From NCBI RefSeq assembly GCF_016859285.1, contig NC_053415.1:22463501-22527500 (forward strand): a stretch of DNA of 64,000 nucleotides, written 5' to 3'. Source of the stretch: Xiphias gladius (Eukaryota; Chordata; Actinopteri; Istiophoriformes; Xiphiidae). Made by a program: the position numbers and the translations under genes. A model generated the notes under the pieces. The model searched no databases, was not told the DNA's origin, and worked only from the letters and a program-made list of their open reading frames with translations. Shown one piece after another: positions 14,753 to 63,357 of the stretch; position 1 is the stretch's first letter; each line of letters opens with the position of its first letter.

Positions 14753-17117
14753 TTTCAAAATCTAAGGATGAAGCCTTTTGTGATACACCATCTAATTTTT
14801 AGGGAGACAGCTTTAGAAAAGTGCTCATTGTAGAAGGGAGACTGCATTGGTGGGGAAAAAAAAAAATGTTTATGAGCAGCACAGGGCCTGGTAAAAACCG
14901 TAAATTTAGTGAGCGGCCAGAACAATGAGGTGGGAGGTAGGAGCTGCAGAGTTATAGCAACACACACACACACACACACTCGCATACACAAGCACAGTTT
15001 GGGGTAAATAACACTGAGTTAGTGTACGATGCAGTTAAGCGCACCTTTAAATAATGGTGGAAAACTAAACCCATTTGTGTAAGCACCTTTATTACAGATA
15101 GAGCCCACCAGCCCTAAATGTTTTGAAATGCGATGTTGTAAAAATACTACCAGGGGCATTTAGATTTTATGAGGAACTTGTAGGCTCAGCAGCACACTAA
15201 AACAAAATCCCTTGAAACTATTAACTGTAAACTTATTACAAGACCAGATGAAGTAAAACAAATAACCTGAAATCAGTCTTTCCAAAGCTAAGGGCAAACA
15301 CTTTTTTCTTCAGTTTCAATTTCAGGCATTTAACCAGCTGTTTGTTTTTCACTTTATTATAAAATAATTAGTCCTAAATATGATACATATCTGTGTTTAC
15401 AAATGTGGTTAAAAGGCCAATACTGCGTGGTTGAGAGCAGGATTTATATTCTATCCATATCCGAGCCGCTGCTTAAAGATGTAACGGATTTACCCAGTCA
15501 AAAATAAAACATGAAAACTCATATGTCAGATAAACATCCTCTGCATCTGTTCTCATAAAAAGGTCATTACATGGAAGAGTCTGTTACAGGAATACTACGA
15601 TAAACAAACAAACAATCTATCCTGACAAGAATCCAACGGTTTATCTTTGGAAATCCAGTCAGAGTTTTAACAATTATTATTCATCTGTACTGTAGTAAGA
15701 GCTAAGATGTGTGGCCACGCAATTACTGCTGACACGTGTCCGATGATGTACAGCGAGATGTTGCAGCAGAATTCAATATATAACAGAATTGATTTTAAAA
15801 AAAATTGTAACAGTGATGATGGACAACATTCTTCTGTCCGTCCATTCTTTCTAATTTGTAACCGGCAAAGGCTTCAGTTGCAGGCCAATGTAAGAAAGCC
15901 GCGGCCTCCGTGATAAACTTGGCCTGCAATCAGATTTTTTTTCTCTGGCAGTGCTGCCATTTACTGTCTAAACGGGGCCCTGCACGCACTGTTGGTAGAG
16001 TTAAACAACTGGGAATAATATCTGGCGAGACGAATAGGAAAGTCCAACTGCAAAGCAAGAGTCTGACTGTAGTGTGCACAGATGCACTTGCGTTAAACCT
16101 GGAGTTGTCTGCGCCCCGGAGGAGTACCAGGCCAGCTTTCGGTTTCCGTGGCAACCAGCAGCTACATCTCATAGAAAAAGAAAAAAAAAAAGTAGTTTGT
16201 CTACCAATCACTAGCTCAATTTGTCAATTCAGCTATTTAATGTTTGGCCTCAGCAAGTTACTGGACAGAAAGAAAAAGAAAAAAACAGTAAAAACTTTTT
16301 GGTTTTTCTTGTTGTGCTGAAGTGCCCTTTAATGCCTCCTGTTCAAGAACCTTTATGCATGAAGGAGTAGCTAGGACCTGATTGGGCTCTTCCAAGGCAC
16401 CGTTTTTAGCCTAACATCCGCCAAATGCCCCTCTTCTCTTGGCAGTTGCCTCCTTAGTTGAGCCAAAGGCCTCTCTGATCAGCCAAAGTGTGTCTAACTT
16501 CTGCACTTAAAGCTACTGGGTTAACGATATAACCATGGTGGGTGGGGGGTGACACTTAAAGACCTCGGTGCTATCTAGGTTCTAGGTTGGACCACGTCTG
16601 AAGGCAGAAGTGTTAATACCGGAATAGCCCCAAATCTCCGATGTGTGGCGAAAAGCCCGTTGTCACGGCCTCCTAGTGGCTGCATCACGCTGGCCCCCCT
16701 GACCCCTCTCTCCAAAAACGCTGGATCTTTCGGTGGCTCGTACGGTTTTGAACAGTCCCCCCCCCCCACCACCACCACCAAAGAGCACTGTTTGTACCGC
16801 GCTCTCCTGTGCGCGCAAAAAATTCACCAAGCAGCCGTGTGATGGATTTACCCCGCATGAGGCGGCGGCGGCTGCGGAGGTGGTGGGTGCCCCTTTTTCA
16901 TTTTACTCTCTTGCCCCCCTAGAGAGTCTGTGCATGCCGCCGCGGCGAGGAGCCTTTTGACACTGAGGGAGAACAAGTTCAGCGGCAGGAAGCTTTAAAA
17001 GGAAATGCCCGCGTTCCGCTGCGCCTTACTGCGCACAGCGTAGGTGTGGAACAGCAGCTTCTCTGTACCGATTCTTTTCAAAAAATGTACAAACGAAGCA
17101 CATGTTCTTCTACGTAC

Positions 17118-18047
17118 CTGTTTCCAGAGAAAGCTGTCCATGCCGTTTAGCGTCCAAGAGACAGCCACGTGGATGGCGGAAAGAATTACTCCAGTGATGA
17201 CCGCAGCGCGCATCCTGACGGGCAGCAGAGTGTAGATGACATGGATGAAGAACACGGTCCACCAGATCCCCTCGGAGGCACTTCTGGGCTGCACGAGCAG
17301 CACCCCGATCACCTGGATCACCAGCACCACCAGGATGACCACGTAGCACACAATCCACATGTGGTCCTGGTGAAACCCGTTCCTGTTGCAGACCACCATG
17401 AGGATGAGCGTGAGGAAGATGGCAACGGAAAACACCACCACGTAAGTTACGCTCGGCCTCGCCGTCCCGCCGGAGCAGTGGAAGCCCAGCATGACCGTGA
17501 AGACCAGCACCAGCACTGCCATGAGCATGGTCAAGCTGCTCTGGTTGAGACGGAAAAAGTAGCGCTGGTAGAGCCGCTCCAACTTCTCCGACTGGAATTT
17601 CTTGGATTTGAAAACGTGCATGACGCTGGTGCAGCACGCCACTAAAGAAAAGTTTACATCTGGCATGACCTCCTCCTCGTTGGTCCTCGGCTTGGCTCTC
17701 CGCTCCTCCAGACCCAGCTCGACAGACTTGGGTCTCACCTCGTCGCCCGGACGCTTAGGGGACGCGCGGTCTCGGTTCTCCTCGCCATGGTCCTGCCAAG
17801 CCGACCTGGATCTGAAGCTGACCCTGCTGACGGTCGTGGAGGCTTTCCCGGACTGCCGGTGGCCCGGCTCATCCTCTTCCCTCCACCGACTGTTAGTCCG
17901 GGAGAGCTTCTTGCGCGGGGATCTGGTCGCGTATGGGCAACCGTTGGCCACGGACTCAGACTCTCCCCAAGCAGATCTGTGCTCGGTCCCTCCCCTCAAC
18001 CCAGGCGCACCGACTCCGGGTGGGCTGACACTGTTTGATCTGGACAT
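17118..18047 (-). CDS. adcy5: adcy5 coding exon 1: adenylyl cyclase type 5, N-terminus and first membrane helices
   Basis: This encodes the first 310 residues of adenylyl cyclase 5, the plasma-membrane enzyme that makes cAMP from ATP under control of Gs/Gi proteins and calcium. The start is ATG at 18045-18047 with a strong context (CACCACCATGT). The N-terminus reads MSRSNSVSPP, followed by EHRSAWGES (22-30) and VRPKSVELGLEERR (104-117), which match ADCY5 and not ADCY6. The block KLERLYQRYFFRLNQSSL (155-172) leads into membrane helices at about 171-190, 200-221, 230-252, 261-275 and 279-298. The open frame runs on, but a consensus donor (CAG/GTACGTA) ends the exon at 17118 after codon 310 (FLWKQ), the usual ADCY5/6 exon 1 boundary, phase 0. 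The sixth helix and both catalytic domains lie outside the window. The cytosolic N-terminus is shorter than in mammals, which carry extra Gly/Ala-rich tracts. Confidence 0.95.
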
Positions 18048-19400
18048 GGTGGTGAACGGGAGGCAACAACAGAGTGCGCTTGAACAAATAAACGCTGCGG
18101 GAAAGGTTTTTGTTCCACGGAAAATAATGTCAGGGAACTATTTAGTCCCAAAGATGAGGCGCATCAAATGTCTGTTATAGGCTGAATTTCCCATAGTTTG
18201 GTGACTGCTGAAACAGTCTGAGCGCTTTGAATCTAAACAGCCGAGTCAATATAAACTCTCGTCGGTTGACTCTCCCGCTTTCAGAGGCAAACTTTCCTCC
18301 TAAAATCTTTTGTGTGTGTGTGTGTGTGTGTGTGTTTAAATCGAGAGAGGATCATCCGAAGCGATGACCAGAAGCGGCGAAAAACCTCTGGGAATTAAAA
18401 CAATTGAACATGCGCAAAAAGTCACAGGGGGGCCCGTTTCGCCGCGAGAGGAGGGAACATTGGATCCAGGTGGACTTGGCTCCACATCACTGGGCCCAAT
18501 TAACTGCCATCCATGGGGAGTTCGCACTGCAGCGCTCGCCGCAGACGATGAAACCCATTACACGAATCGGATGCTCCCCAGAGATCGCAGCGCAACACCG
18601 TCAATTACGCCGCGGATCCGTTATGTCTGCGGACGTGTTTCCTGCATCACTGTAAACGGGTCGCGGACAGAAAAAGGCGGAGGTGGGGGGGGGATAAAAA
18701 GGCGAATCCCATGTTTGCGGCTTCCGTGCGGCCCCGCGGAGCCTTAATTCACCTGTACTGACCAAACACTGCAGCCTGGACGGCGGTGGGAGCCTCACGT
18801 TTGCCCACAAAGCATCATCACGATCCTCGCACACTTGCGCTGACCGCGGCGGGGGGAGAAAAACTCAGCCGCTCCTCCTCCTCCTCCTCCTCCTCCCGAG
18901 GCAGCCGCAAAAAACACCTCCTTGGTCCATGGTATAGCCCGTGGTCAGTTGATCGTCACCCCCTGCGCCGGATCAGTGTCCGACAGCTGCCCATCACTGT
19001 GCAATCCCCCCCACCCCCACCACCCCAGAGAGCGACCCCTGATTTGATTCGTGGCCGGACTCCGCGCGCAGCGAATCAGCGGCCGTGCGGCGTCAGCATC
19101 GCCCGAAGTGTCTGCCCGGTGCCAAAGCGCGCGCTCGCAGCCTCGGACAATCCGCTCGCCGTCTGTTCGGAGCGTGGCATCATAACATATTTACCGCTGA
19201 TTGCAGCTTTAACGGCCATTCAACCAAGTGTGCTTCCTGCGTCCCGCCTCCCCGCCGCGCTTCCATTGGAGAGAGGAGGGGGGGTGAGTCACGCTTTGGC
19301 GCGCGCTGATTGGGCGACAGGCCGGTCAATCCACATCAAGAGGCTGCGCGACCCCTCGGGCGCTTTCGACGAATGGGCGGGTCTGTAGTCACAGCTGGAT
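18048..19400 (-). promoter_or_regulatory. adcy5: adcy5 5' UTR and CpG-rich promoter region
   Basis: The 1.35 kb upstream of the adcy5 ATG is clearly GC- and CpG-rich compared with the flanking AT-rich DNA. Dense CpG runs include 18590-18740 and 19020-19160. This is typical of a vertebrate CpG-island promoter. A GT microsatellite (18310-18334) sits inside it. No TATA box position can be assigned with confidence, and the transcription start is not visible. The long plus-strand frames here are by-products of GC richness. Confidence 0.6.
18310..18334. repeat. (TG)n microsatellite in adcy5 promoter region
   Basis: Twelve TG units about 265 nt upstream of the adcy5 start codon. Confidence 0.95.
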
Positions 19401-28614: not shown

Positions 28615-31600
28615 CTGAGGGGAGGCAGAGGAAGATCAGTATGTGGAAGAGAGACTTCAACATCAAACTACAACAGCAACTGGATCGACCAAAAGACACA
28701 GGCTTCCTTCCTTTTTATAATTTTGCAAGATACCTCTACAAAAGTGCACTGCATTCACCACAGAACAGAAACAGGAAGCATCGTCCTCCAGTTCGACTTC
28801 CATTGTCACGTAATTATGAGACAAACTATTACTTACTAATTATGTGATAGATTACCTCATAATCATATCCCATCATATATGACACTGCCTGATTCAATTC
28901 TCATACGGTGATGACTGTTGAGGGGTGATCAAACTGAACGCAAGTGGCATCACTGCAAACACAGTCAACGGAAAAATGCAAGATGCATATTTGTTGCAAA
29001 AATTAGGGAAGTTGAAGGTATTTCAGCTAAAATTCATGCCAATCATTAGCATTTACGATTCAAATGAATTAAGTGCAAAGACAAGAGGAAAAAGGAAAGA
29101 GATTGGATGGAAGCCACCGAAAATTCCTGTAAATTTTGACATTAGTCAGAATCTGAGCTGCCACACAAACACACCACAAGCAGAATCCTCACACACACAC
29201 ACAGTTGCTGTGTCTGTTGCCAGCTACAGTAGCTATAACTAACGTTTACACAGGGAATTAACGGGGATTGCAAAAAACACTGAAGCGGTCAAATAAAAGC
29301 GAATAACGCAAGGTAAAGAAATTACCTTTGTGTTCCGACTCAAAATCCCTTGAGGCCATGTTTACATTTTCTCTAAATTATGAAAAAGATCTTGTAATTA
29401 GGAGATACCGATGATGCTAAATCACAATTACAGGAAAATGTCTCCAATTTTTCTTTTGCATCGCACTGCATATTTGTGATTTAAAGCAAACTCTTAGTGG
29501 GCGCACGATATTGTTGCTGCATGTTTACTGTCGCTACCAGAGCGGAAAAAAAGCAACATCTGTTTGTTGACTTACGGGGAATGTAGGAGATCATGACGAG
29601 GATGAGGAAGGTGTAGTAGTCGAAGGAGAAGTTGTACTTGTTGGGGAGAGTGACAGAGTACAGGCCTGTCTTCTGCACGTACGGCAGCGCTGCATAGATA
29701 GTCAGCAGTTCCCCAGTCACTCCCATGGGATACAGCACAATGAAAAAGGTGTACCTGCAGGAGAGGGGTTTGTGAGAGAGAAGGCAAGGGACTGAAATAA
29801 TAAATCATACAGCTTCGTTACTCAATGCTTCTGCAACATAAGGGGTGGGCGGTATAGCTGGTATGAATAGCAAAACACAGAGTGAGATATCATAAGGATT
29901 TGACTTTTTTTCTGTTTGCACCACAAGCTGCACGTTACCCAGTGCAGCTCCAAACTTAAGCAATGTCAGTGATAGGCCAGTAAAAACGTGAACATACACT
30001 TGTGCTTTTCACTGAAACAAAACACATTTTCCTTTGAAGAAAATGTGGGTGAAGAACACTTCTACATAAGCACAACCAAATGATGAAGAATGTGGTCCAA
30101 AAAAGGCAATTCGTTATAAAAAAAAACAAAAAAATGCAAGAGAGACTCAAAAAATTGTTTCCAGAGGCAGCAATACGAGCAACATTTTTCATTAAGTGGA
30201 GGGGTACGAGGGATGTTTGAGTATGTGCTCAGGCTCTGACACAAGTAATTCAAGTAGGCAATGATTCAAGCAAAACATTGCCTAAAACCCTGACAGACTG
30301 CTGTCCTTTAAAGGAAAGCCAGCCATGGAAGGACATCTAAACACCATAACAGTGCATTTGAGTAACGACACGGTGCAGATTCTAACTGTCGACAGAGACG
30401 CGTTAAAGTAATAGTGAAAAGGCTGCATTCAGTTTTAAATCCCAAACCATAAACAAAATTCCAAAGTTGCACTGCAGCAGCTGTGAGAAAGTGGAGCAAA
30501 CAGACAAAATTACATTATTGGATCCAAACTCTAAATGTGATAAAAATATTAGGCCATACCATGTGCTTCTCGACGAGAAAGTTGAAGAATGCAAATAAAA
30601 AGGATATAATACTGCCTCTGCGTGCCTCTAAATTTTTAATGCTAGGGCTGTTGAGGGATTAGGCCTTCTGAGGAGAAAGCTCGCAATTTAGTATGAGAGA
30701 TACACTGAGCTCCGTTTTCTTCTACAGAGAGAATGAAGATCAAATAGAGAAAATAAAAAGTTCTGCCTCTTCTTTAACTAGCGCTCCAAACCCAGTCACT
30801 GTCTTCTGAGCCTTCGCTGAATTTTCCACGGGTGCACAACCAATTTTTCTCTCTCTCAGGCTGCAACTCAAACCAAAAGTCAAATACCAATATAGCGACG
30901 GTCTAATTTGCTGCCAAGCAACAACGACCACAGGGGGGGAGGCACTTAACAACTGTTGCCTTGGTTGTAGACAAAGATGAATGCCATTAGGCGGACAGAT
31001 TTTCTGTAGGCTTGATTTTGGTTTGTTTTTTTGAAACTGATCCGTGTATCTTTAGCATCGACAAAAACAACTACTTAAACAATGCAGTGATTCTCAAAGT
31101 GGCTGCTGATTAATTTCTGCCAATTAACTAATCGTATAAACACATACAAAAGTCTTTGTTTCACATAACATAGTAAGCCAACCCTCTCACTTACATCAGT
31201 GATTAATGTTGTCTTAACATCTGTATCGTTGTTTTGCAAAAGTGGAGCTGAAGCAATTAGTTGAAGTGACAGAAAACTAATCAGCAACTATTTTTCTAAT
31301 CCAGTCATCGTTTTAATCACTTTGTGAGCAAGAAAGGCCAAACAATCAATGATTCCAGCCTCTCAAATGTGAGGTTTGGTTGCTTTTCTTTGTCATATAT
31401 CACTGTAAATTTAAGATCTCTGGGTTTAGAACTGTTGGTCAGACAAAACAAGAAGTTTGAGGACGTTACCTTGGGCTTGAGAACATTGTGATGGGCATTT
31501 TTTCTCTACCATTTGCCATTTCGTAGACTACACGCTTAATTGACAGAAAAAAATCAATAATGAAAATAATAATTTGTTTCTGTCTCAGTACAGTATCAAG

Positions 31601-34019
31601 ATGATAAATCATGGCTTTAAATAAGGAGATATCTAATCACAGCATCTTACTTGAATAAGAATCTGACTCAAGTATTCTTCAGTACTCAGTCTAACGGACA
31701 TAATTCATTTATTCAGTATTCTCCAACTATTGAGGCTTGACACAACTCTTTTAAAATCATCTCATCTTGAAATGATTGCTCAGGCATGTACTTCAGCAGG
31801 TACACTTAGTGTACAAATGTCCCCTGCTCTGACACTGCCCTCGGGCTGAGTTTCCTACCTTGCCCATTTGATGAGGTATGGCAGGTGATTGAGCAGGCTG
31901 AAGGTGTAGAAAGAGTAGCGGATGATCTCCGTGACGGTCCAGGCTGTGACAAACAGTAGCACGCTGTCCTCGCTCTGCACCTGCAGAAACACACACACAC
32001 ACACACACACACACGGGATGATGGGAGGAGGACCGAGGAACAGACGGGCTTGCATCATGCCGCAGTAGTTACTCTACTGTAGGCTAATCCAGACTTCCCA
32101 TCACAGAACCATGCTGTTTGTTTTCAGATGCTCAGGGATCAGATCACACTGCAGACCGCTGGTCACTATCCTCAGATATTAGAATAAAAGCAATGCAAAT
32201 AGGATGTTAAAAAGAAAGGCACACTCCTGATCACACACTCGCAATATAAATACGGTTTCCATACACATACACGCAGAAGGGAATGAGAGAACAGCTTGAG
32301 AAAAACGTCAGTACAGCATCATACAAAGACACACAAAGGAAACAAAGCATTTCAAACACGAATTGTTATTCACTGTAATAAAATTCAGCAGATCCATTCC
32401 TGCAACCCTATAGCAAGACCTCCTGGCGTTACTTACAGATTTACTCCTTGCCAAACTAATCCAATCCAATCTATCAACAGGGCAAACAGTACATCGACTG
32501 GTCACTTTTGAACACGAACCCCGGGATCTATTTACATTGCTGTGTCGTTCATACCAAGCGAATTAGACAGACTGAGAGAGAAACTCATCCTACCTCCCTG
32601 ACGCTGTGTGTGACGGCCCAGGTGAGGAAGACCCGGGACATGACCTGGAATCCAGTCAGGACCACGGAGGACGGTACAATTCCTGGGATACGAGACAAAA
32701 GACAAACCCTTAATATATAGGGATGAAAGAACATTGGTCACACGTGTTAATTAGCTTGTCTGCTTGTGTGTGTGTGTGTGAGCATTCCCGACATGTTGTC
32801 ACTGGCAAGGTTCTCACTATTTTCAATGTTTTCTTTTTTCAAGACATCCAGGACATTTTCAAAAACCCAGAGAGTGGAACGTCGCTTTTTTTAAGTTTAA
32901 TTTCAAAGCGTTACGATGAGCACACTCCGCAGATATTTAGATGCTGAAGATTCCCAAAACAGTCAGTTATTTGATTAGCCGCCAGACAGAAAATCAAACT
33001 GATCTTTTCCGCTCCTCAGCTGTGAGTATCTGAGAAACAGGAACCAAATCCCCACATTTGAGCTGTTTGAAGATGTCAGTTTGGGCCTATGGAAATGTTT
33101 TTATGGGAACTTTTCAGTTTTTTCTGTTTTCTGGAAGGTAATCATCATCAATAATGAACAAATTAGTTATTGGGAGCCCTGGTTTGGATATTAAAAGAAG
33201 CGATGCCCATTTCCAATACACTGGATCAGTATTGACACTGGCACGGCCCCAACTAAAAGAATTGGGTTTTAGTCAAAAACAGTCTGTTCACAATAAATAT
33301 TTTTTCTAAGATACTGCAGTAAATTGTAAATATGTGATTTCATAAACGTTCTACAAATAACTAAACAAATAAATAATGGGAAGTTGTTCAAGCCTAACAA
33401 GGCGTTGTGTGTGTGTGTGATATGTAGTCATGTGTAATAGTCTAATTTAAATTAGGTATCCGAGGAGAAAAATTTGATCGATGCGTGCCATTGCTGAGAC
33501 TAATTTCCCTTTTTGTTTTTTCTTTCGCTTCTGGAGACCTGGGCCTCAGAAGTTAAATGTTTCTTCAGCTATATATCATTGCATTTTACATGAAATGTAA
33601 TTTTTGAAAAAATAATTAATTGAACCCAATTGGGGTAATAAATAAAATGGGTAATAATAATAATAATGGTTGTCACATAGAAGGGAGTGCTTGACTGGGA
33701 AAAAAAAATTCCACAAAAAGCATGTCCAAAAAAACAGGAAACATAGGAGGAGATATTGGACAATGAAAAAAAAAAAGCGTTTTAAAAAGAAAACTGATGC
33801 TCTGCTTATTAATAAATATGTTAGACACATCAAATGGTTTGATGAAATACCGTGTGCTCAGGAGTGTTGATGCAGTATCTTTTACTGGCCAGTAGAGAGG
33901 AACCTAGAGCTGCTGGTTTGCATGTGTGTGTGTGGTTCCGTGTGTCCGTGTGTGTGTGTCCGTGTGTGCGTGTGTCCGTGTGTCCGTGTGTGTGTCCGTG
34001 TGTGTCCGTGTGTGCGTGT

Positions 34020-34055
<36 letters not shown>

Positions 34056-46700: not shown

Positions 46701-49700
46701 TCCCAGTAAATGACAGCCTGCATTCGAGACCCTGTAAATCTGCCCCTGGATGATAGATTTTCTGTATATTGTACGAGGACCAGCCTTTGTAATACTTTCT
46801 GTTTTTACCAACTGACAGTATTACGCATTACTCCACGCTTTGTGAATATGTGGGTGTCAAGAGTTGTTGTTTAGCACTGGCAACAGTGTCCAGTTGACCT
46901 GTTTTGTCCGCTTTGACCTCATTGTCATGTCAGAGGGCTGCCTCAGGTCACCTTGGACAAAAAGTAATGAGACAGGTGTGTTGAGGGTTTCTGTCTGAAG
47001 GCTAGAGCCACATTTCTGACCAACATGTAGTCCCCAGCATGAACTGCAGATGGCATTCCAGTCACTGGAAATCAGTTTTTCACTTTTAGTCTTAAGTGCT
47101 TCACTCTAACTCTCTCCTATATGTATACAGACACACAGAGACACACACACACACACACACACACAGAGATGTGACCTTATCTTTCTAAATTGCCCACAGG
47201 GGTCTACCACAAAGGTCAGCACACCTGCTGCAAGCAAAGCATTGGATGATGACGACCTGGCCAAAGGTAAAGTGAGATGCCGTGATTCAACTCTACACAC
47301 ACCTTTATCAGCTTTATCAAATCATAATTTTCTACAACAAATACATATTTTCCAACTATTGTGTTATTTTTGAGGTTTATTATTTTCTCCTTTTTATAAA
47401 TAGTATACCATTGTAAATTGATTATCAACTAGATTTCACATTGCCATGCATCAGAAGTTTTGTTGCCTTTTATCACTCTATTGAGAAATGTTTATACTCT
47501 TAAAATAAAAAAAATAAATATAAGTGACGAATGCTGTCTCATATGTGTTGGACATTTGACAAATACGCTCTTCTCCTTTCCACTTCTCTTCCGTTGTCTC
47601 TTCTTCTCATCCAAACCTCTGCCTCCTCCAGCCATCGAGCTGTCCTTGCAGGAGCAGAAGCAGCAGGCAGAGACACGGCCCCCGACCGTGACCTCCGACC
47701 CCGCAAACTACACCAATGGTGGAGGGGGGCAGGAGGTCCGGAAGGTGCGTGCGCTGTATGACTTCGAAGCGGCTGAAGATAATGAGTTGACCTTCAAAGC
47801 TGGAGAACTTATTCTGGTTTTGGATGACAGGTACAGTTTCATAACACGTCCAATCTGTTCCATAAATAAAGCCAAGAGCGCTCGTAGATTTTTAATATCA
47901 TGAAAAAACTGTAAAACCCATTTAATATCTGACTTTAGGAGAGCAGTCGCAGACACCATAAATTAAAAATTCATTTTTATTTAATCCAACATTTCATATT
48001 GCGATGGCTCTGATCGGTGTGAACCTTAGCCAGGGGCTCAGTGTGGCTCACTCTTTGAAGCTCATGCATTGATGTTTATTCCTGTTTCATGGTTTTGTTC
48101 ACAGTGATCCAAACTGGTGGAAAGGAGAGAACCACAGAGGGGTGGGTCTTTTCCCCTCCAACTTTGTCACAACCAATCTGAACGCTGAACCAGAGACAGG
48201 TAGGTATTTTTATGCCTCTGCGCTGGAGACAGCCGCGACCGGAGGCATTATGTTTTTAGGTTGTCTGCCCGTCCGTCCCATTCCTGTGAATGCGATTTAT
48301 CAGGAACACCTGGAGGGAATTTCATTACCTCTGGCACAAACGTCCACTTGGACTCGAGGATGATCTGATTAGAGTTTGGTGGTCAGAGTTAAAGGTCACT
48401 GTGACCTCGCAAAACCCGTTTTTGGCCATAACTGAAGAATTCAGATGCTAATTATGATAAAATACATTTAATACATTGTATTAAATGCCTTCAAAGTCTT
48501 CACTACATATGAGTTTGGACAGACATGACAAACTGCACCACTACTGGTTGGCGGAGGCATAATCTACAACCGCGAGGCAGTGATTCTAGTCACAGAATCT
48601 GAAAATGAACACTTAAGGCCCTTCAGCTTCACATTCTCTGGTTTTTCGAACCTACGTTTTGTACCTTTTAGAATACTCTACGCTCTTCAGCTGTTTGATT
48701 TCAACTGGAGGAAATTAGTTTCAGAGCTGCTGATCGAACTCAACCTTTTCCTCTACAGTGGTTCATGTGGAAAAGTCAGCCAGTCCTGAAGAGACGAGCC
48801 TGGAAACCAAAGTTGAGCCTGAGCCCGTCTTCATAGATGAGGTACTACTCCTCAGTGGGCTCACATATTTACAAACCCAAATCATCTCTCAATTCAACTG
48901 CCAACCCCAAACCTGCTCTCTCCGTTCTGCAGGGGAAGATGGACAGAACGCTGGCACTGCTGCAGAACGCAGATCCTGCAGATCCAGCTCCTGACTCCCC
49001 AGAGCTGATCCAGCTGGAGGGTATAAAACCTTAATGCTAGTTTAAATCTAGCCGCTCTGCCGGTGACAACTGCAGTCGGTCTGAGCTACACCGTGGTTTT
49101 CTAACTGTTTCTGTGAACCCTCCCTAACTGTAAATATTTGACTGAACAGGTGCATGTGAACAGATGAATCCCATGATTGATGAGAAGCTGGAGGAGATTG
49201 ACAGGTACTGTGTCATATATGTGAACTACTTAGGTTTATCAAAATTATTATTATTAGTTTGTTAAATTCCCAGCTAGTTGTCTTAGATTATCTAACACCC
49301 ATTTCAGCTACTTTAAGATAAAGGTAGCGATGATTGTACCTTGCCTGTCGAGACTTCACAAGACCATGCTTGAGGAGCTTCAGTCGGAAAAGCTGTGTAC
49401 CGCTAGGACTGCTCTACAAATGAAAATATATCCCTGTCCATTACATTTCTCTCCCTGTGTTGCAGGAAACACTCCGAGTTGTCAGAGTTAAATGTGAAAG
49501 TTTTGGAGGCTCTGGAGCTTTACAACAAGCTCATGAACGAGGCTCCGTTCTACTCGTCCTACTCCAAGATGCAGCCGCAGTATGCACCATCTGGCTCAGC
49601 TGTGGCCATGCAGGTCAGACAAAAATGTACTAAAGTTGGCCTCCGTGCTGCCCGAAATCTCACCTTAACAATGATTTAATCTTTGTTATTCTAAATATTT

Positions 49701-52700: not shown

Positions 52701-54056
52701 CGGTTTTCCAAACGGGATTAACAGAAAGTTGTTTTTGTCTGACTATTCATGATAATAATAGTGTATGTTTTGTTGTTTTTGGAGGGAATGGCTTCATGTA
52801 AATCAATTTTACATGCAGGAAATCACAACTAACATAATAACCCCACTTCTTGAACAGTGATATGGAAAATAAATACTGGTATGCAGCCAGTATACCCAGT
52901 GACTGTTACCACTGGATAATAAGTTATAGAGGGTCAGCCTGTATTTAACATGCAAGAAATAATTAAAAAGTGATCCCCGTTGCTGTAAACAATTTAGTCC
53001 TACAAAAGCCTAACACAGCTTTCCTTTTATGAACATTTGCTTTCTCTGCTTCTCTGCCTATTCAGATTTTTTTTTTTTTTCACAAACACCAAAAGTAGCT
53101 TTTTTTGTCACTTATCCAAAAAGGATACAAGCAGGTAAGTAGCAAAAAAGGATGGATGATTGGTGTACAAGTACCTTGCTTGTCAACACTGATTTGGGCT
53201 GATCCTCATCATATTTATTCCTGGAGTGTGTTCCAGAGGAAGTCACAGCATCCTCAAGCTGGATGTAGCTTTAAATCTAATACAGATTGTATTAGGGATG
53301 GGTGGTATGGATGAAATTAGTATCATAATGTTACTTTGAATAATTGTACCACATTATGGCCAATGTCTGCAAAAGTTGTTCACTGCAATGAAATCTGTTC
53401 AGCTGTTGTGTCAGAAAAAAACTTGTCATGTGAAAAACAAAAACATTTAACTCATTTAGTTTGTTTTTAACCACAACTAGCTTGATGTCATTCATTTGAA
53501 CAACACCTTTGTAAATGATAACGAGAGATATCATCACAGGAGTGTTTCACTAATACATAATAGATGATTGAGCCATTCCCAGCCCTGGGTTTCGTTGTAT
53601 GGCTGCATTATTTGCATTGTTTATGATTTTGAATATAATACCTTTTGTCATAGTATGTCAATGTACCAAAGATTTATTTGGACTCGAGAAATTTTAAAAG
53701 ATCTTGAAATCGACGAGGGTCTACTTCATATTTTATTTGCTACATGCAAATGATGAGACAATAATTTTCACATATTGAGACTCAGTTTCCGTATTTTCTG
53801 TTGGTACTAAGTGGCAAATTTGTATTAACTTCACAGCAGTGGTATGAACACTCAGTACATGAACCAGGCTGCCGGAGCTTCTTACCCAGCCCAGGCGGGC
53901 GTGGCCATGGACATATCGACCTATCACAACTCTAGCATGCCTCCCGTGTCCTATCCTGTGGCTGCTCCCCCTCACCAGGCTCCGCAGCTGCAGCACCAGC
54001 ACCAGCAGCAGCAGCAGCAGCAGCAGGCAGCGTATTATCAACAGCCTCTGCTGTGA
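40671..54056 (+). CDS. stam2: stam2: signal transducing adaptor molecule 2 (ESCRT-0 subunit), complete gene, 14 coding exons
   Basis: STAM2 pairs with HGS/HRS on early endosomes to form ESCRT-0, which gathers ubiquitinated receptors for lysosomal sorting. Its SH3 domain recruits the deubiquitinases USP8 and AMSH. The coding exons are 40671-40710, 42357-42441, 42657-42732, 43765-43860, 44112-44258, 47200-47266, 47632-47830, 48105-48199, 48759-48841, 48933-49020, 49150-49204, 49466-49613, 52135-52295 and 53837-54056. The total of 1560 nt gives 519 residues plus stop (human STAM2 525), with all phases fitting. Domains: VHS about 1-140 with the ubiquitin-binding Trp26; UIM about 164-183 (AIELSLQEQ at 171-179); SH3 about 207-264 (ALYDF 211-215, NWWKGE 240-245, GLFPSNFV 251-258); GAT-like coiled coil about 297-385; Pro/Gln-rich tail ending [24 protein letters not shown] and the tail identify STAM2 rather than STAM1. 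Confidence 0.96.
41072..41445. mobile_element. GCTGCAAC-family MITE in stam2 intron 1
   Basis: Starts ggggcagaattgaacgatta and ends ataatcgttagtttgctgcc. Interior ccaaagatttttggactgtt and aagatgtcaccctgagctt. It appears to include a partial inverted internal duplication. Confidence 0.65.
42357..42441 (+). CDS. stam2: stam2 coding exon 2 (VHS)
   Basis: 85 nt encoding [20 protein letters not shown] then KIGTTSN. Trp26 is the VHS ubiquitin-contact residue. Acceptor TTCCAG, donor GG/GTAAGC. Confidence 0.95.
42657..42732 (+). CDS. stam2: stam2 coding exon 3 (VHS)
   Basis: 76 nt encoding [19 protein letters not shown] then AMQALN. Acceptor TTCCAG, donor AAT/GTGAGT. Confidence 0.95.
43765..43860 (+). 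CDS. stam2: stam2 coding exon 4 (VHS)
   Basis: 96 nt encoding [20 protein letters not shown] then [12 protein letters not shown]. Acceptor CTTGCAG, donor AGG/GTATTT. Confidence 0.95.
44112..44258 (+). CDS. stam2: stam2 coding exon 5 (end of VHS)
   Basis: 147 nt encoding [20 protein letters not shown] through ISFPSASSQ. Acceptor TCTTGCAG, donor CAG/GTATGT. Confidence 0.95.
45690..45790. repeat. Dispersed repeat (GGTACACTT type), second copy
   Basis: Shares ggtacactt, cta(a)tacaacag and the following aaattctacc/ttattact pattern with 38623-38775. It sits next to long T-runs at 45651-45690. Confidence 0.5.
47130..47165. repeat. (CA)n microsatellite before stam2 exon 6
   Basis: CA units with two AGAG interruptions, ending 35 nt before exon 6. 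Confidence 0.9.
47200..47266 (+). CDS. stam2: stam2 coding exon 6 (linker, UIM start)
   Basis: 67 nt encoding [14 protein letters not shown] then LDDDDLAK, the acidic lead into the ubiquitin-interacting motif. Acceptor GCCCACAG, donor AAAG/GTAAAG. Confidence 0.93.
47632..47830 (+). CDS. stam2: stam2 coding exon 7 (UIM and first half of SH3)
   Basis: 199 nt encoding [12 protein letters not shown] (UIM core with Ala171 and Ser175), a short Gly-rich linker and [20 protein letters not shown] of the SH3 domain. Acceptor CTCCAG, donor GACAG/GTACAG. Confidence 0.95.
48105..48199 (+). CDS. stam2: stam2 coding exon 8 (second half of SH3)
   Basis: 95 nt encoding [20 protein letters not shown] then [11 protein letters not shown]. 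Acceptor TTCACAG, donor CAG/GTAGGT. A mobile-element copy begins only 11 nt after the exon. Confidence 0.95.
48211..48562. mobile_element. Non-autonomous element in stam2 intron 8
   Basis: Left tatgcctctgcgctgg and right ggttggcggaggcata are inverted complements. Interior ggcacaaacgtccacttgga and aaaggtcactgtgacctcgc is text I recall from a widespread fish repeat. Confidence 0.7.
48759..48841 (+). CDS. stam2: stam2 coding exon 9
   Basis: 83 nt encoding [17 protein letters not shown] then [10 protein letters not shown]. The EPEPVFIDE end is conserved in STAM1/2. Acceptor CTACAG, donor GAG/GTACTA. Confidence 0.92.
48933..49020 (+). CDS. stam2: stam2 coding exon 10 (GAT-like region)
   Basis: 88 nt encoding [20 protein letters not shown] then DSPELIQLE. 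Acceptor CTGCAG, donor GAGG/GTATAA. Confidence 0.92.
49150..49204 (+). CDS. stam2: stam2 coding exon 11 (GAT-like region)
   Basis: 55 nt encoding [17 protein letters not shown]. Acceptor GAACAG, donor ACAG/GTACTG. Confidence 0.93.
49466..49613 (+). CDS. stam2: stam2 coding exon 12 (coiled coil, HGS binding)
   Basis: 148 nt encoding [20 protein letters not shown] then [20 protein letters not shown]. This region forms the STAM-HGS coiled-coil core in known family members. Acceptor GTTGCAG, donor CAG/GTCAGA. Confidence 0.95.
51334..51735. mobile_element. MITE in stam2 intron 12
   Basis: Left ttaaaggaatagtttaacat and right (complement) ttaaagcaatagtttgacat are clear inverted repeats. Interior attagcttagcttagcataa and ctctgtccaaaggtaacaaa match a very common spiny-rayed fish MITE. 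The TTA/TAA at the ends suggests a Harbinger-like target site. Confidence 0.8.
52135..52295 (+). CDS. stam2: stam2 coding exon 13
   Basis: 161 nt encoding a Pro-rich segment including [20 protein letters not shown], equivalent to human SYSLGPDQIGPLRSLPPNV. Acceptor GCCCAG, donor AG/GTAAG. Confidence 0.93.
53837..54056 (+). CDS. stam2: stam2 coding exon 14 (C-terminus, polyQ, stop)
   Basis: 220 nt encoding [15 protein letters not shown] and onward to a run of eight Gln (CAG at 54003-54026), AAYYQQPLL and TGA. The QQPLL end is the STAM2 C-terminus. Acceptor TTCACAG. Confidence 0.95.
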
Positions 54057-56675: not shown

Positions 56676-57380
56676 GAGTGGTAGTTTGTTTTTGTTGTTT
56701 GTTTTTTTTCCCTACGTTTTCTTTGGCTGCCTTGAAGTAATTACATTTATACAATTAAGAGGCACATGATTAAAATAGTGACTGTCCTCCTAATTAGCTT
56801 CTCCTATTCCCTGCACTCATGACCAGCTGTGTATGATGAATAAGCCAACAGTATGATCCATCACCCAGAGGACACGGTTCGTTCCTCTTATGGTTTCTGC
56901 TCCTTAATTTTCTTAAATTTTTTTAAAAACTGTTCCCTGTAATTAAATTGCTCAAGGCCAGGCACCTACACCCCCAGTCCTGCAGCGGGGTTGCCTGAAA
57001 ACAGCACAGCTGGTAGCGCGGTCTGCTGAGGAGGACTGAGGGGATTTTATCACCTGTCGTTTGTCCTGGTGAGTTTGCTGAGATCAGATTGTTTTTAAGT
57101 GAAGAATACAGGCACTAAATCAGCCCTAACTGATTGCGTTGGGCTACAAATGTATATGAAATACTATTAAAATATTTTGTGTATATTAAAATATGTTCTA
57201 TTTACCATAAAGATAATTCAAAGTTACCAGTGATTGAATTCTTTTAACATTCATACCAATCCTCTTTTTCAGGTATTTCTTTGTATTTTTTTTTTTCTTT
57301 TTTAAAAATCTGGCCTACAGTTATTGTAGTGGGATGGTATTCAGTGTTTTAGGAGGGTTGCTGGGTTGTTGTTGTTGTGT
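56676..57380. other. Spacer between stam2 3' end and the duplicated module
   Basis: AT-rich DNA without a recognised gene. The segment 56940-57069 is GC-richer and ends in a strong donor-like site (CCTG/GTGAGT at 57068-57075). It could be an upstream non-coding exon of cacnb4, but nothing proves it. Confidence 0.4.
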
Positions 57381-57402
57381 TTGTTTGTTTGTTTTCATAC
57401 AG

Positions 57403-57563
57403 AGAATGAATGGGCCTGAACTCTGGAGCCGAATTCGAGGTCACGCTGGAACGGTGAGGAAGAGTTTACGCTGCCTTCAAGGGCTCCTCGTAAAGTCCAA
57501 CTTCCAATATCGGAAACGTTTACACAAAAATTTTGACCGTTTTAATCATAAATACAAAAATAG
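57403..57563 (+). other. Exon-like cassette in copy A, unrecognised 53-codon frame
   Basis: A polypyrimidine/acceptor-like sequence (TTTTCATACAG) precedes AGAATGAATGGGCC. The open frame starting at ATG 57406 reads MNGPELWSRIRGHAG and is rich in Arg/Lys. It runs to AAAAATAG/GTAGGG, a donor-like site. Without splicing the frame stops at TAG 57565-57567. I do not recognise the peptide. Its exit phase (2) does not fit cacnb4 exon 2 (phase 0), so a direct join would shift frame. It may be a real alternative exon, an exon of another transcript, or chance. Confidence 0.3.
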
Positions 57564-58309
57564 GTAGGGCTGCTATTAATGTGCTGAATTTTAGGCCTAA
57601 TGATATTACATTTGAATAATCCTTTCTTTCATCATTCCTCTATACTTGTTTGTACCAGTACACGATCACTTGGTGCTAGTGGTTGCGAGCTTCTGGTTTT
57701 ACTAAAATTATTTACATAAATAACACAAGACCTTTGATAGGGTTGAGTCCACAATCTACATAAAAAAAATAAATCAAACCCGTTAATCTGTCACCAGTTC
57801 TGTTTTTGGCAGTCTGCACAACTTGGGTGCCACTAACTTCTGTGCACATTTTTTTACTTGAGAAATATGAGTTGCGTAAAAATAAAGAGATTTATTTATC
57901 ATTTATTTACATTACTTTTTTACAGCAGTGTAAACAGCTAGTGAAAAATACAGGGACATTTTTAACATGGCAAATTTAGGCCAAAAGAAGTCAAAGAACA
58001 AGGATATAAAATAAAAACAGTATATGTGTATTACAGTCTTAATGGAACATAAGTAGCCTTAGTAGTTAAGAAAATTGATATGGAACAGGGGACATGAATT
58101 GAAATAATCTGGAAGGTGGGAATGTGGAAGTAGACACTGTAAAGGATAAACTTGAGGACAAACTCAAGTTTAGTGTAAAATGACATGTATGTGGGCTATT
58201 TACGTCTACATATGCTTTATTGATATTTGTGAATGATTGTGTTTAAGTATATTTCCACGTATAGATTCGTGGCCTACGGCATTTCGGTCAAACGAACTGA
58301 TACTATCTG

Positions 58310-58560
58310 CTCACTAAGTAAACACTCTGATTTTTCCGTTTTGTCGGTCGTACGTGCGCGTCCGGGTGCAGCGCTGGCATCCCGAAGTCCCGCGTTGTCC
58401 CTGAACGCAGCACCACCCCAGCCCCGTGCGATGGGACCGGAGGGGGGAGGGTCGGTATCTGTAGTCCCGCCGATCCGCGGGCTTCATCTGTGCGCGTCTG
58501 CCGCAGAGGTAGGACACATCCTCAGCGGTGAACGGAGCCGAGCAGCCCGGTACCACATTC
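58310..58560 (+). promoter_or_regulatory. GC/CpG-rich module, copy A (possible duplicate cacnb4 promoter or first exon)
   Basis: A CpG-dense segment in AT-rich surroundings. It contains ATG at 58431-58433 opening MGPEGGGSVSVVPPIRG, in frame to GCAGAG/GTAGGA, a consensus donor leaving phase 0. That phase is compatible with cacnb4 exon 2. The same module recurs at 59555-59805. Confidence 0.35.
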
Positions 58561-58593
58561 ATTTCTTTTTCTCTCTTTTGTGTTTTTTTGTTT

Positions 58594-59837
58594 GTTTGTT
58601 TTCATACAGAGAATGAATGGGCCTGAACTCTGGAGCCAAATTCGAGGTCACGCTGGAACGGTGAGGAAGAGTTTACGCTGCCTTCAAGGGCTCCTCGTAA
58701 AGTCCAACTTCCAATATCGGAAACGTTTACACAAAAATGTTGACCGTTTTAATCATAAATACAAAAATAGGTAGGGCTGCTATTAATGTGCTGAATTTTA
58801 GGCCTAATGATATTACATTTGAATAATCCTTTCTTTCATCATTCCTCTATACTTGTTTGTACCAGTACACGATCACTTGGTGCTAGTTGGTTTTACTAAA
58901 ATTATTTACATAAATAACACAAGACCTTTGATAGGCCGGTCTTCCTTTGCTCTCTACCTTAATGTCCCATCCTTGAGAAAATTCAGAAAAACTGGGTTTA
59001 GTCCACAATCTACATTAAAAAGTCCTGCAGCGGGGTTAATCTGTTGGCAGTCTGCACAACTTGGGTGCCACTAAATTCTGTGCACATTTTTTTACTTGAG
59101 AAATATGAGTTGCGTAAAAATAAAGAGATTTATTTATCATTTATTTACGTGATTTTTTTGCAGCAGTGACAACAGCTAGTGAAAGATACAGGGACATTTT
59201 TAACCTGGCAAATTTAGGCCAAACGAAATCAAAGAACAAGGATATAAAAAAAAAAAACAGTATATGTGTAATAGAGTCTTAATGGAACATAAGTAGCCGT
59301 AGTAGTTAAGAAAATGGATATGGAACAGGGGACATGAATTGAAATAATCTGGAAGGTGGGAATGTGGAAGTAAATAGACACTGTAAAGGATAAACTTGAG
59401 GACAAACTCAAGTTTAGTGTAAAATGACATGTATGTGGGCTATTTACGTCTACATATGCTTTATTGATATGTGTGAATGATTGTGTTTAAGTATATTTCC
59501 ACGTATAGATTCGTGGCCTACGGCATTTCGGTCAAACGAACTGATACTATCTGCTCACTAAGTAAACACTCTGATTTTTCCGTTTTGTCGGTCGTACGTG
59601 CGCGTCCGGGTGCAGCGCTGGCATCCCGAAGTCCCGCGTTGTCCCTGAACGCAGCACCACCCCAGCCCCGTGCGATGGGACCGGAGGGGGGAGGGTCGGT
59701 ATCTGTAGTCCCGCCGATCCGCGGGCTTCATCTGTGCGCGTCTGCCGCAGAGGTAGGACACATCCTCAGCGGTGAACGGAGCCGAGCAGCCCGGTACCAC
59801 ATTCATTTCTTTTTCTCTCTTTTGTGTTTTTTTGTTT
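58594..59837 (+). repeat. Tandem duplication upstream of cacnb4, copy B
   Basis: Second copy, offset 1207 nt at its left end and 1244 nt at its right end because of internal indels. Compared with copy A it carries an extra block (about 58936-58995). It ends in a T-rich run directly before the cacnb4 5' UTR, so the unduplicated arrangement was probably cassette, GC module, then cacnb4 exon 1. Confidence 0.9.
58610..58770 (+). other. Exon-like cassette in copy B
   Basis: Same 161-nt unit as 57403-57563 with two substitutions, both amino-acid changing (Arg to Gln and Phe to Val). The acceptor-like and donor-like borders are kept. Two non-synonymous and no synonymous changes give no sign of protein-level constraint since the duplication. 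Confidence 0.3.
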
Positions 59838-59997
59838 GTTTGTTTTTTTCTTTTTTTCTTTTTCTCTCTTCTGTTGTCGTGATCCGGAGGAAAAGCTGGA
59901 GCCGGCGGTTCGCTGTCCGCCGCCACCGGAGCAGCGGCAGTTCCAGTGGGGCGGCACGGAGCGCCAGCCTCCGCCCTGGACCGATGAACTGGCCGAG
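59555..59997 (+). promoter_or_regulatory. cacnb4: cacnb4 promoter and 5' UTR region (includes GC module copy B)
   Basis: CpG-rich DNA from 59580 to 60060, broken by a T-rich run (59815-59875), leads into the cacnb4 start codon. No stop lies in the cacnb4 frame between about 59824 and 59998, but no suitable upstream ATG is present except one inside the T-run. An out-of-frame ATG at 59984-59986 starts a 15-codon frame overlapping the real start. Confidence 0.5.
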
Positions 59998-60060
59998 ATG
60001 TCCCGGCACATCTACACCCGACACGGGCTAGGAGACGGGCTGCAGAAGCCCGCGTTCCAG
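59998..60060 (+). CDS. cacnb4: cacnb4 coding exon 1 (predicted)
   Basis: ATG at 59998 (context GCCGAGATGT) opens [14 protein letters not shown], then LQKPAFQ at the donor. Exon length (21 codons), phase and a few residues (Tyr, Gly, Asp-Gly, final Gln) match human beta-4 exon 1. Overall identity is low, so this exon rests on position and phase more than on homology. Confidence 0.6.
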
Positions 60061-63000
60061 GTAGGAAAATAAAAAAAAAAAATCATTTGAGACGGCGGGC
60101 GTTCTCGCCTCTCCTCTTCTCCTGCCCAATGATGCAAGAACACCAAGCCCTCAAACATCCCATCGAAAAACATGAATAGAAATATGACTCCCAACAGGAA
60201 CCTATCGTGGCCATTGTGGGAGAGCAACACCTTCGCTCCCGATATTAACACGCAACAGTGGAAATTGATTCTAAACGCTGAGCGCCGATCCACGGGGACA
60301 GCGCCGAACTTAATCACACTGCTCTCGGTTTAACCGACGCTGCGTTTTGCCATCACTCCCAGCGAGGCCCCCCCCCCCGGGGTGCCGTCGCTCGGGCCCG
60401 GGGGCGGTGCGGCGAGCGTTTGACTGATCCCGGGGAGAGATGAAATTGCGTGCTTAATTATTAAACATCCTCTGATGGAACTCCGCTCGTGATGTATGGG
60501 GTGGCCCTGGCCGTGGCCGTGGCCGTGGCCGTGGCCGTGGCCGTGGCCGTGGCCGTGGCCGTGGCCGTGGCCGTGGCCGTGGCCGTGGCCGTGGCCGTGG
60601 CCGTGGCCGTGGCCGTGGCCGTGGCCGTGGCCGTGGCCGTGGCCGTGGCCGTGGCCGTGGCCGTGGCCGTGGCCGTGGCCGTGGCCGTGGCCGTGGCCGT
60701 GGCCGTGGCCGTGGCCGTGGCCGTGGCCGTGGCCGTGGCCGTGGCCGTGGCCGTGGCCGTGGCCGTGGCCGTGGCCGTGGCCGTGGCCGTGGCCGTGGCC
60801 GTGGCCGTGGCCGTGGCCGTGGCCGTGGCCGTGGCCGTGGCCGTGGCCGTGGCCGTGGCCGTGGCCGTGGCCGTGGCCGTGGCCGTGGCCGTGGCCGTGG
60901 CCGTGGCCGTGGCCGTGGCCGTGGCCGTGGCCGTGGCCGTGGCCGTGGCCGTGGCCGTGGCCGTGGCCGTGGCCGTGGCCGTGGCCGTGGCCGTGGCCGT
61001 GGCCGTGGCCGTGGCCGTGGCCGTGGCCGTGGCCGTGGCCGTGGCCGTGGCCGTGGCCGTGGCCGTGGCCGTGGCCGTGGCCGTGGCCGTGGCCGTGGCC
61101 GTGGCCGTGGCCGTGGCCGTGGCCGTGGCCGTGGCCGTGGCCGTGGCCGTGGCCGTGGCCGTGGCCGTGGCCGTGGCCGTGGCCGTGGCCGTGGCCGTGG
61201 CCGTGGCCGTGGCCGTGGCCGTGGCCGTGGCCGTGGCCGTGGCCGTGGCCGTGGCCGTGGCCGTGGCCGTGGCCGTGGCCGTGGCCGTGGCCGTGGCCGT
61301 GGCCGTGGCCGTGGCCGTGGCCGTGGCCGTGGCCGTGGCCGTGGCCGTGGCCGTGGCCGTGGCCGTGGCCGTGGCCGTGGCCGTGGCCGTGGCCGTGGCC
61401 GTGGCCGTGGCCGTGGCCGTGGCCGTGGCCGTGGCCGTGGCCGTGGCCGTGGCCGTGGCCGTGGCCGTGGCCGTGGCCGTGGCCGTGGCCGTGGCCGTGG
61501 CCGTGGCCGTGGCCGTGGCCGTGGCCGTGGCCGTGGCCGTGGCCGTGGCCGTGGCCGTGGCCGTGGCCGTGGCCGTGGCCGTGGCCGTGGCCGTGGCCGT
61601 GGCCGTGGCCGTGGCCGTGGCCGTGGCCGTGGCCGTGGCCGTGGCCGTGGCCGTGGCCGTGGCCGTGGCCGTGGCCGTGGCCGTGGCCGTGGCCGTGGCC
61701 GTGGCCGTGGCCGTGGCCGTGGCCGTGGCCGTGGCCGTGGCCGTGGCCGTGGCCGTGGCCGTGGCCGTGGCCGTGGCCGTGGCCGTGGCCGTGGCCGTGG
61801 CCGTGGCCGTGGCCGTGGCCGTGGCCGTGGCCGTGGCCGTGGCCGTGGCCGTGGCCGTGGCCGTGGCCGTGGCCGTGGCCGTGGCCGTGGCCGTGGCCGT
61901 GGCCGTGGCCGTGGCCGTGGCCGTGGCCGTGGCCGTGGCCGTGGCCGTGGCCGTGGCCGTGGCCGTGGCCGTGGCCGTGGCCGTGGCCGTGGCCGTGGCC
62001 GTGGCCGTGGCCGTGGCCGTGGCCGTGGCCGTGGCCGTGGCCGTGGCCGTGGCCGTGGCCGTGGCCGTGGCCGTGGCCGTGGCCGTGGCCGTGGCCGTGG
62101 CCGTGGCCGTGGCCGTGGCCGTGGCCGTGGCCGTGGCCGTGGCCGTGGCCGTGGCCGTGGCCGTGGCCGTGGCCGTGGCCGTGGCCGTGGCCGTGGCCGT
62201 GGCCGTGGCCGTGGCCGTGGCCGTGGCCGTGGCCGTGGCCGTGGCCGTGGCCGTGGCCGTGGCCGTGGCCGTGGCCGTGGCCGTGGCCGTGGCCGTGGCC
62301 GTGGCCGTGGCCGTGGCCGTGGCCGTGGCCGTGGCCGTGGCCGTGGCCGTGGCCGTGGCCGTGGCCGTGGCCGTGGCCGTTGCATAAATACAAATACAAA
62401 GACACAGGTCAACGAGTTGGAGGGGGGAAAAAAACAGACTGAAATGAAGCGCTGATATGTTTTCAATACGTTGTACAGCGATAGTGCGTCGTAATGAAGC
62501 GCAAAAGTAGCCGGTGTCTCGACCTTTGGCTTTGGGAGCGTTGGTCGGACAGAACAGCGGCGTCACCTCGGGCGCCTCAGGAGACCGTGACGGGGCCTTC
62601 GTCGCAGTTTTATGGAACAAACAATGAATGGATTATCCGGTAAAAATAATCAGCAGATTGATTGTTGGGGGGCGGGGGGGTGAACGAGGTTGCATCCCTC
62701 CATGAATGAAAAGAATAAAAGCAGTGTGGAGTTGCAGTCAGTCAGTTGGAGGGTCGGAAGCATCGGCTTCACCCCCCAGGTCGCCCTCCGGGGGTCACGG
62801 GAGGGCAGGATGCCCCGCACACACAGTGTTAGAAAAAGCCGAGAGGCCATTTCTCAAATTTCACCCCCCCCCCCCTCCCTTGCATATCAGATGAAGTGTT
62901 GCCGCACTGGCCCCTGTCAAGCACCGAAACAAATCGGCTACGCGTGAAATTAGGTCAGGAAAAAAAAAAAAAAAAAAAGAAGCGGATCCGTGGGGGCCGG

Positions 63001-63357
63001 CAGTGTTCGTGCAAAAGAATTTCGGAATGGATTTTCCGCAGTGGCAGTCCGGTAAAGCGGTGACACATTGACTTCACATAATCAGGTCATCACAGAGGGA
63101 CAAGAGGCGGCTGGAAAGAGCCGGAGTCCGGTCAACCCGGGGCGGGGGGGGGCTGGATGCTGGTTGTAATGGAGTTGCTGGAGGGAAGGTGCCCTTGAGT
63201 GCGGGTGGGAAGAGAGTTAGAGAAAGTGAAAGAGGGGATTTAACGCCTGTTTTGTGTTCTTTGACCTCCCCAGGCGAGCAGAGGAACGTACTCCAGGCGC
63301 AGCCGACTGAAGAGGTCCGACGGCAGCACCACCTCCACCAGCTTCATCCTCAGACAG
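59998..63357 (+). CDS. cacnb4: cacnb4 5' part: voltage-gated calcium channel beta-4 subunit, exons 1-2 (gene continues beyond window)
   Basis: CACNB4 is the cytosolic beta subunit that binds the alpha-1 pore of high-voltage-activated calcium channels, promotes surface delivery and sets gating. Exon 2 (63274-63357) reads [20 protein letters not shown], nearly identical to human CACNB4 ([23 protein letters not shown]). Exon 1 (59998-60060) is 21 codons, ends in phase 0 at CAG/GTAGGA and joins exon 2 in frame. Human beta-4 exon 1 is also 21 codons. The SH3 and guanylate-kinase-like domains are encoded downstream of the window. The gene follows stam2 on the same strand, as in human. Confidence 0.85.
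60061..63273 (+). other. cacnb4: cacnb4 intron 1
   Basis: 3.2 kb, of which 58 percent is the GGCCGT array. Outside the array there are C- and G-runs (60369-60378, 62666-62680, 62865-62875, 63142-63151), an A-run (62961-62979) and GC-rich unique DNA. No other gene is seen. Confidence 0.8.
60503..62380. repeat. Perfect hexanucleotide tandem array (GGCCGT)312
   Basis: One variant unit GGCCCT (60503-60508) precedes 1872 nt (60509-62380) of GGCCGT with no visible substitution or indel, exactly 312 copies. It sits in cacnb4 intron 1, 448 nt after the exon 1 donor. Each unit has one CpG. All six frames are open through it: Val-Ala, Trp-Pro and Gly-Arg on the plus strand; Ala-Thr, Arg-Pro and Gly-His on the minus strand. 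Confidence 0.99.
63274..63357 (+). CDS. cacnb4: cacnb4 coding exon 2
   Basis: 84 nt (28 codons), phase 0 at both ends, acceptor ACCTCCCCAG and donor CAG/GTAAGG. It encodes [17 protein letters not shown], then [11 protein letters not shown], diagnostic of CACNB4. Confidence 0.93.

Follow-up and report, generated by a model that had tools for sequence, protein, structure and literature searches.

The first intron of cacnb4 in the assembly of Xiphias gladius carries 312 perfect GGCCGT units in a row, and it is rather probable that this array arose by a recent, locus-specific expansion of a microsatellite. The expansion is probably of a known kind, driven by a seed and near-neutral. Its main interest is as a candidate natural counterpart of the human hexanucleotide expansions in first introns. 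In the following sections, the array and its host gene are described, its predicted RNA structure and reading frames are compared with those of known repeats, and the possible explanations are weighed.

The array and its position

All coordinates without a contig name refer to the window, the whole 64-kb stretch of DNA that was analyzed, which contains no N bases. The array proper (60509-62380, plus strand) consists of 312 perfect units and spans 1,872 nt without interruption. As head-to-tail copies of a unit within the range of 1 to 6 nt, it is a microsatellite. The maximal pure period-6 run is one base longer (60508-62380, 1,873 nt), and the TRF call extends from 60501 to 62380 with period 6, 313.3 copies and 99% matches. 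At the left edge, a lone variant unit, GGCCCT (60503-60508, plus strand), was read directly; it is possibly a remnant of the seed from which the array would have grown. An earlier note on this DNA, which had reported 312 pure copies over 1872 nt and a single variant at the left edge, proved exact to the base. The array is 83% GC, lacks adenine altogether and contains 312 CpGs, all intact; this count agrees with the one CpG per unit that had been claimed before.

The array begins 448 nt past the donor of cacnb4 exon 1 and accounts for 58.3% of an intron of 3,213 nt (60061-63273, plus strand), as the coordinates of the earlier note had it (448 nt, 58%). The comparison that was drawn there with intron-1 hexanucleotide expansions also holds for placement, as a GC-rich hexamer does lie in the first intron of a gene.

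The host gene and its second copy

The intron opens with a donor GT at 60061 and measures 1,341 nt without the array. It separates the coding part of exon 1 (59998-60060, plus strand; 21 residues) from exon 2 (63274-63357, plus strand; 28 residues). Exons and splice sites were read from the sequence, and both exons have similar counterparts on contig C13. Exons 1 and 2 alone do not separate the beta subunits, giving one weak beta-1 match (E 0.62). Downstream exons were located by their motifs in the 39.5 kb of the contig that follow, of which the first 5,000 bases past the window read N. The joined partial translation contains the Pfam domains PF12052 and PF00625, and its best PDB match is the beta-4 chain 1vyv_A with 506.9 bits, compared to 490.8 bits for the best beta-2 chain. 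Judged by these beta-subunit domains and the best match to beta-4 in the translated exons, the host gene is cacnb4. A stam2-like exon is found upstream on the same strand (47433-47900; best PDB match STAM2, E 6e-15); in human, stam2 adjoins cacnb4.

A second copy on C13 (C13:6952201-6954400) is called cacnb4-like from its exons 1 and 2, which are similar to those of the window, and from a partial PF12052 match nearby. Its exon 1 reads MSRHIYIRNKIGEGIQAPIFQ. The first intron of this copy is about 1.77 kb long and contains neither GGCCGT nor any pure tract of period 1 to 12 above cut-offs of 15 to 28 nt, depending on the period. Since this intron does without an array at about 1.77 kb and the host intron minus its array measures 1,341 nt, the array looks like added length.

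Occurrence in the genome and elsewhere

The exact 18-mer (GGCCGT)3 has 310 forward and no reverse matches in the assembly of 690,834,319 bases, in which stretches of N cannot match, and (GGCCGT)5 has 308 matches, which equals 312 minus 4. As 310 is 312 minus 2, the number expected of one array of 312 units, the assembly has no second locus with three exact copies in tandem. On its right side, the array adjoins single-copy sequence. A genome search with the right flank (62381-63273) returned one full match and three short ones of 47 to 60 query bases, with all four candidates scored. A dispersed element as the carrier of the array was rejected on this result.

The earlier note had considered purity at such length exceptional, a claim that is weakened by several comparisons. 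The same assembly contains a perfect TG tract of 1,311 nt (C1:6550760-6552070), which is followed by one TGGG change and more TG, and pure (AC)94 matches at 29,107 and 24,213 start positions, with many positions per tract. In a survey of 14 fish genomes, hexanucleotide tracts of more than 300 iterations are given for three, Csem, Amex and Ccar (PMC8186053). The pure TG tract and this survey make the cacnb4 array remarkable yet of a known kind. Long pure microsatellites of fish and the cacnb4 array have kilobase-scale purity or more than 300 hexamer iterations in common and differ by motif, an exact GGCCGT array of at least three units being present here at one locus only. ACGGCC, as the motif would be named in the style of the survey, is missing from the most frequent hexanucleotides given in its Tables 7-9, which list only the motifs that make up half of the repeats (PMC8186053). 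The longest other pure tract of period 1 to 12 was 121 nt in a sample of 31 records (322,678 bases, window included, some overlapping and one with 5,000 N), a value that is no measure of the genome maximum because the sample missed the TG tract of 1,311 nt.

Outside the assembly, 49 stretches with at least eight exact GGCCGT copies were found in a prokaryote collection, the longest run in the fetched stretches reaching 19 copies, and none in a viral collection. Such runs do not look like the source of a 312-copy array, and a microbial origin was discarded. The literature searched yielded no report on a "GGCCGT repeat", five rotated or complementary wordings included, and among the matches listed for GGCCGT together with hexanucleotide or microsatellite, no paper contained GGCCGT. 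The terms hexanucleotide repeat, cacnb4 and intron co-occur in one paper among the matches listed (PMC3778950).

Predicted structure of the repeat RNA

The RNA folding predictions covered 670 hexamer classes, each represented by 20 copies. GGCCGU ranked 24th in predicted stability with -102.9 kcal/mol and the SCA36 repeat GGCCUG 18th with -125.4 kcal/mol, and fully paired hairpins are predicted for both. The antisense repeat ACGGCC is predicted to fold into a hairpin with regular mismatches (-75.3 kcal/mol, rank 70). When quadruplexes were allowed, the predicted energy of 20 GGGGCC units changed from -92.9 to -186.8 kcal/mol. No G-quadruplex was predicted in 20 units of GGCCGU, for which -107.3 kcal/mol was obtained both ways (in a rotation different from that of the -102.9 kcal/mol fold). 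A stable repeat-RNA structure, as is typical of the SCA36 and C9orf72 type, is thus predicted on 20 units. In these models, the GGCCGU RNA resembles the paired hairpin of SCA36 more closely than the G-quadruplex of C9orf72.

Reading frames through the array

All six frames through the array are free of stop codons. They encode WP, GR and AV in the sense and TA, RP and GH in the antisense direction. Two putative open frames on the plus strand start with an AUG next to the array, MYGVAL(AV)n of 631 aa (60492-62387, AUG at 60492) and MGWP(WP)n of 648 aa (60496-62442, AUG at 60496), and would matter only if the intron were retained or separately transcribed. A third one, MQ(RP)n of 643 aa on the minus strand (60454-62385, AUG at 62385), would need antisense transcription. 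The frame with (GR)312 (60476-62455, plus strand) has no in-frame AUG upstream of the array. The peptides of the AV, WP, RP and GR frames are considered here as putative products only, derived from codons. A coding repeat was rejected: the tract is stop-free in all frames, but it sits between the donor and the acceptor of cacnb4. The array as an RNA gene was likewise ruled out by zero Rfam matches at the gathering score and zero tRNA or tmRNA genes in the window.

Comparison with SCA36 and C9orf72

The cacnb4 array has the GC-rich hexamer and the first-intron location of SCA36- and C9orf72-type repeats, and its unit, GGCCGT, is neither GGCCTG nor GGGGCC. The SCA36 repeat (GGCCTG in intron 1 of human NOP56) shares with it the GC-rich hexamer, the GGCC core and the first intron, and for both RNAs the prediction is a fully paired hairpin that lacks a G-quadruplex. 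The two units differ by a swap of the last two bases, and the cacnb4 array has a CpG in every unit. Poly(Pro-Arg) has been detected in SCA36 tissue (PMC11979933), and the cacnb4 array has an antisense RP frame. The frames described for NOP56 are AW and GP (PMC11979933), to which GL can be added from the codons, in contrast to GR, AV and WP in the sense direction of the cacnb4 array. SCA36 is a human disease with NOP56 as host gene, whereas the cacnb4 array lies in a different gene and has no known phenotype. Pathogenic SCA36 alleles have as few as 25 and typically 650-2,500 copies (PMC11979933), and the 312 copies of the assembly fall between this minimum and the typical range. The SCA36 expansion is described to impair splicing of NOP56 intron 1 (PMC11979933).

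The C9orf72 repeat GGGGCC is also a GC-rich hexamer in a first intron. It gives rise to poly-GR and poly-PR peptides (PMC4575390), the counterparts of which would be the GR and antisense RP frames of the cacnb4 array. In contrast to GGCCGU, a G-quadruplex is predicted for GGGGCC on 20 units; the GA, GP and PA frames are absent from the cacnb4 array, and the gene is a different one.

If the array is real at its full length, an ordinary vertebrate locus would have the anatomy of the human intron-1 hexanucleotide expansions. Its unit would provide poly-GR and poly-PR frames without a predicted G-quadruplex, so that the roles of arginine dipeptides, hairpin RNA and quadruplex could be told apart more easily, and one could ask how an animal tolerates such repeats. 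If the array has been inflated by assembly, it would be a cautionary example for repeat surveys.

Origin of the array

A recent expansion might have been seeded by two or three GTGGCC-like units within the CpG-rich beginning of cacnb4 intron 1. Growth would have occurred by slippage, aided by self-complementary GGCC hairpins, and purity would have been kept by low age or by fast turnover of units. When cacnb4 is transcribed, the repeat RNA would fold into a long hairpin. Splicing and decay would be expected to dispose of most of this RNA, so that the default effect would be near-neutral. Length-dependent effects on splicing, methylation, transcript level or RNA structure are conceivable.

If substitution rates of 3e-9 to 1e-8 per site in each generation are assumed, with or without a tenfold rate at CpG, zero changes in the array bound the age of its units at about 40,000 to 530,000 generations, assuming that turnover erases no changes. 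Patient alleles of SCA36 analyzed by long reads are described as interrupted (PMC10083286), in contrast to the pure cacnb4 array. The purity of the latter, if real, thus favors recency or fast turnover. The same interruptions in human SCA36 expansions can also be held against a recent expansion (PMC10083286). A further point against it is that an expansion-prone motif might be expected to leave other arrays, of which none with at least three exact units exists elsewhere in the assembly.

That purity is exact would also be expected if the true GGCCGT tract were shorter or imperfect and had been lengthened or homogenized by a k-mer loop, gap filling or consensus polishing, an explanation that is doubtful but deserves serious attention. 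Pure TTAGGG runs of at least ten units are found at three loci only (18 units on C22 at 319 kb, 12 on C154 and 29 on C482, none on C1-C18), and a gap of 500 N lies at another microsatellite, from which it follows that the assembly does not always resolve repeats. The near-identical tandem duplication of about 1.24 kb directly upstream may itself be two joined haplotypes. Short reads have no unique placement inside the array, so that interruptions could have been polished away. With respect to long reads, the accuracy published for 774 GGGGCC units was 26.6% in an ONT consensus, which indicates that some methods cannot read such tracts, but about 99.8% in a PacBio consensus obtained from a plasmid (PMC6102925). 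Against an artefact also speak the lack of any N in the window, the lack of a second full copy of the right flank and a length of 1.9 kb, which is within that of long reads. Moreover, a telomere-like tract on a contig of 3,611 bases (C482:2601-3400) retains many variant units beside its pure TTAGGG block of 29 units, and imperfect hexamer tracts are thus not generally homogenized in this assembly. With its 1,311 nt, the perfect TG tract is a second case of purity like that of the array, in a different motif, but both could have the same origin.

Two further explanations accept the array as real and assign an effect to it. Disease-type biology in the living animal, with intron retention or RNA foci and dipeptide-repeat proteins that are tolerated or mildly harmful, is improbable. 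The putative peptides would be poly-GR without an AUG and poly-AV, poly-WP and antisense poly-PR with AUGs. The first intron, the GC-rich unit and a copy number beyond the 25 with which SCA36 can already occur (PMC11979933) are in line with this idea, as are the stop-free frames with AUGs adjoining the array and the observation that poly-GR-encoding RNA induces apoptosis in the embryonic zebrafish brain (PMC8649169). However, intron 1 is expected to be removed, and 312 copies are fewer than the 650-2,500 typical of SCA36 (PMC11979933). It is more improbable still, and hardly to be expected, that the array is a selected cis-element, either extending the promoter CpG island or acting as a structured intronic element that tunes cacnb4. 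The CpG observed/expected ratio does stay between 0.86 and 1.23 in 200-nt steps between 59501 and the right end of the array, which starts only 448 nt past the donor, but the second cacnb4-like copy on C13 has no such element and the assembly contains no other exact array of at least three units. A recent expansion of the microsatellite at this locus is the explanation preferred here.

Other features of the window

Just upstream of cacnb4 exon 1, a sequence of about 1.24 kb is duplicated head to tail (57380-58602 and 58587-59846). Identity is 97.1% over a block of 803 nt and 95.9% over a block of 362 nt, with no difference in the last 300 bases or so, and TTTG repeats lie where the copies join. 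This may be a real duplication of the promoter region or two haplotypes joined. Open frames (57238-57564 and 58532-58771) contain RMNGPELWS(R or Q)IRGHAGTVRKSLRC in both copies, behind a splice-acceptor-like CATACAG; the frame in the right copy (58532-58771) has no Pfam match.

Downstream of the stam2-like exons, an open frame contains a GCA/CAG tract (53984-54031), which was read as a short glutamine run. Further to the left, an open frame on the minus strand (16998-18137) matches the Pfam family AC_N, the N-terminal part of adenylyl cyclase, with E 1.8e-156, and an impure GT-rich tandem tract is located at 33923-34052, for which TRF gives periods of 2, 22 and 38.
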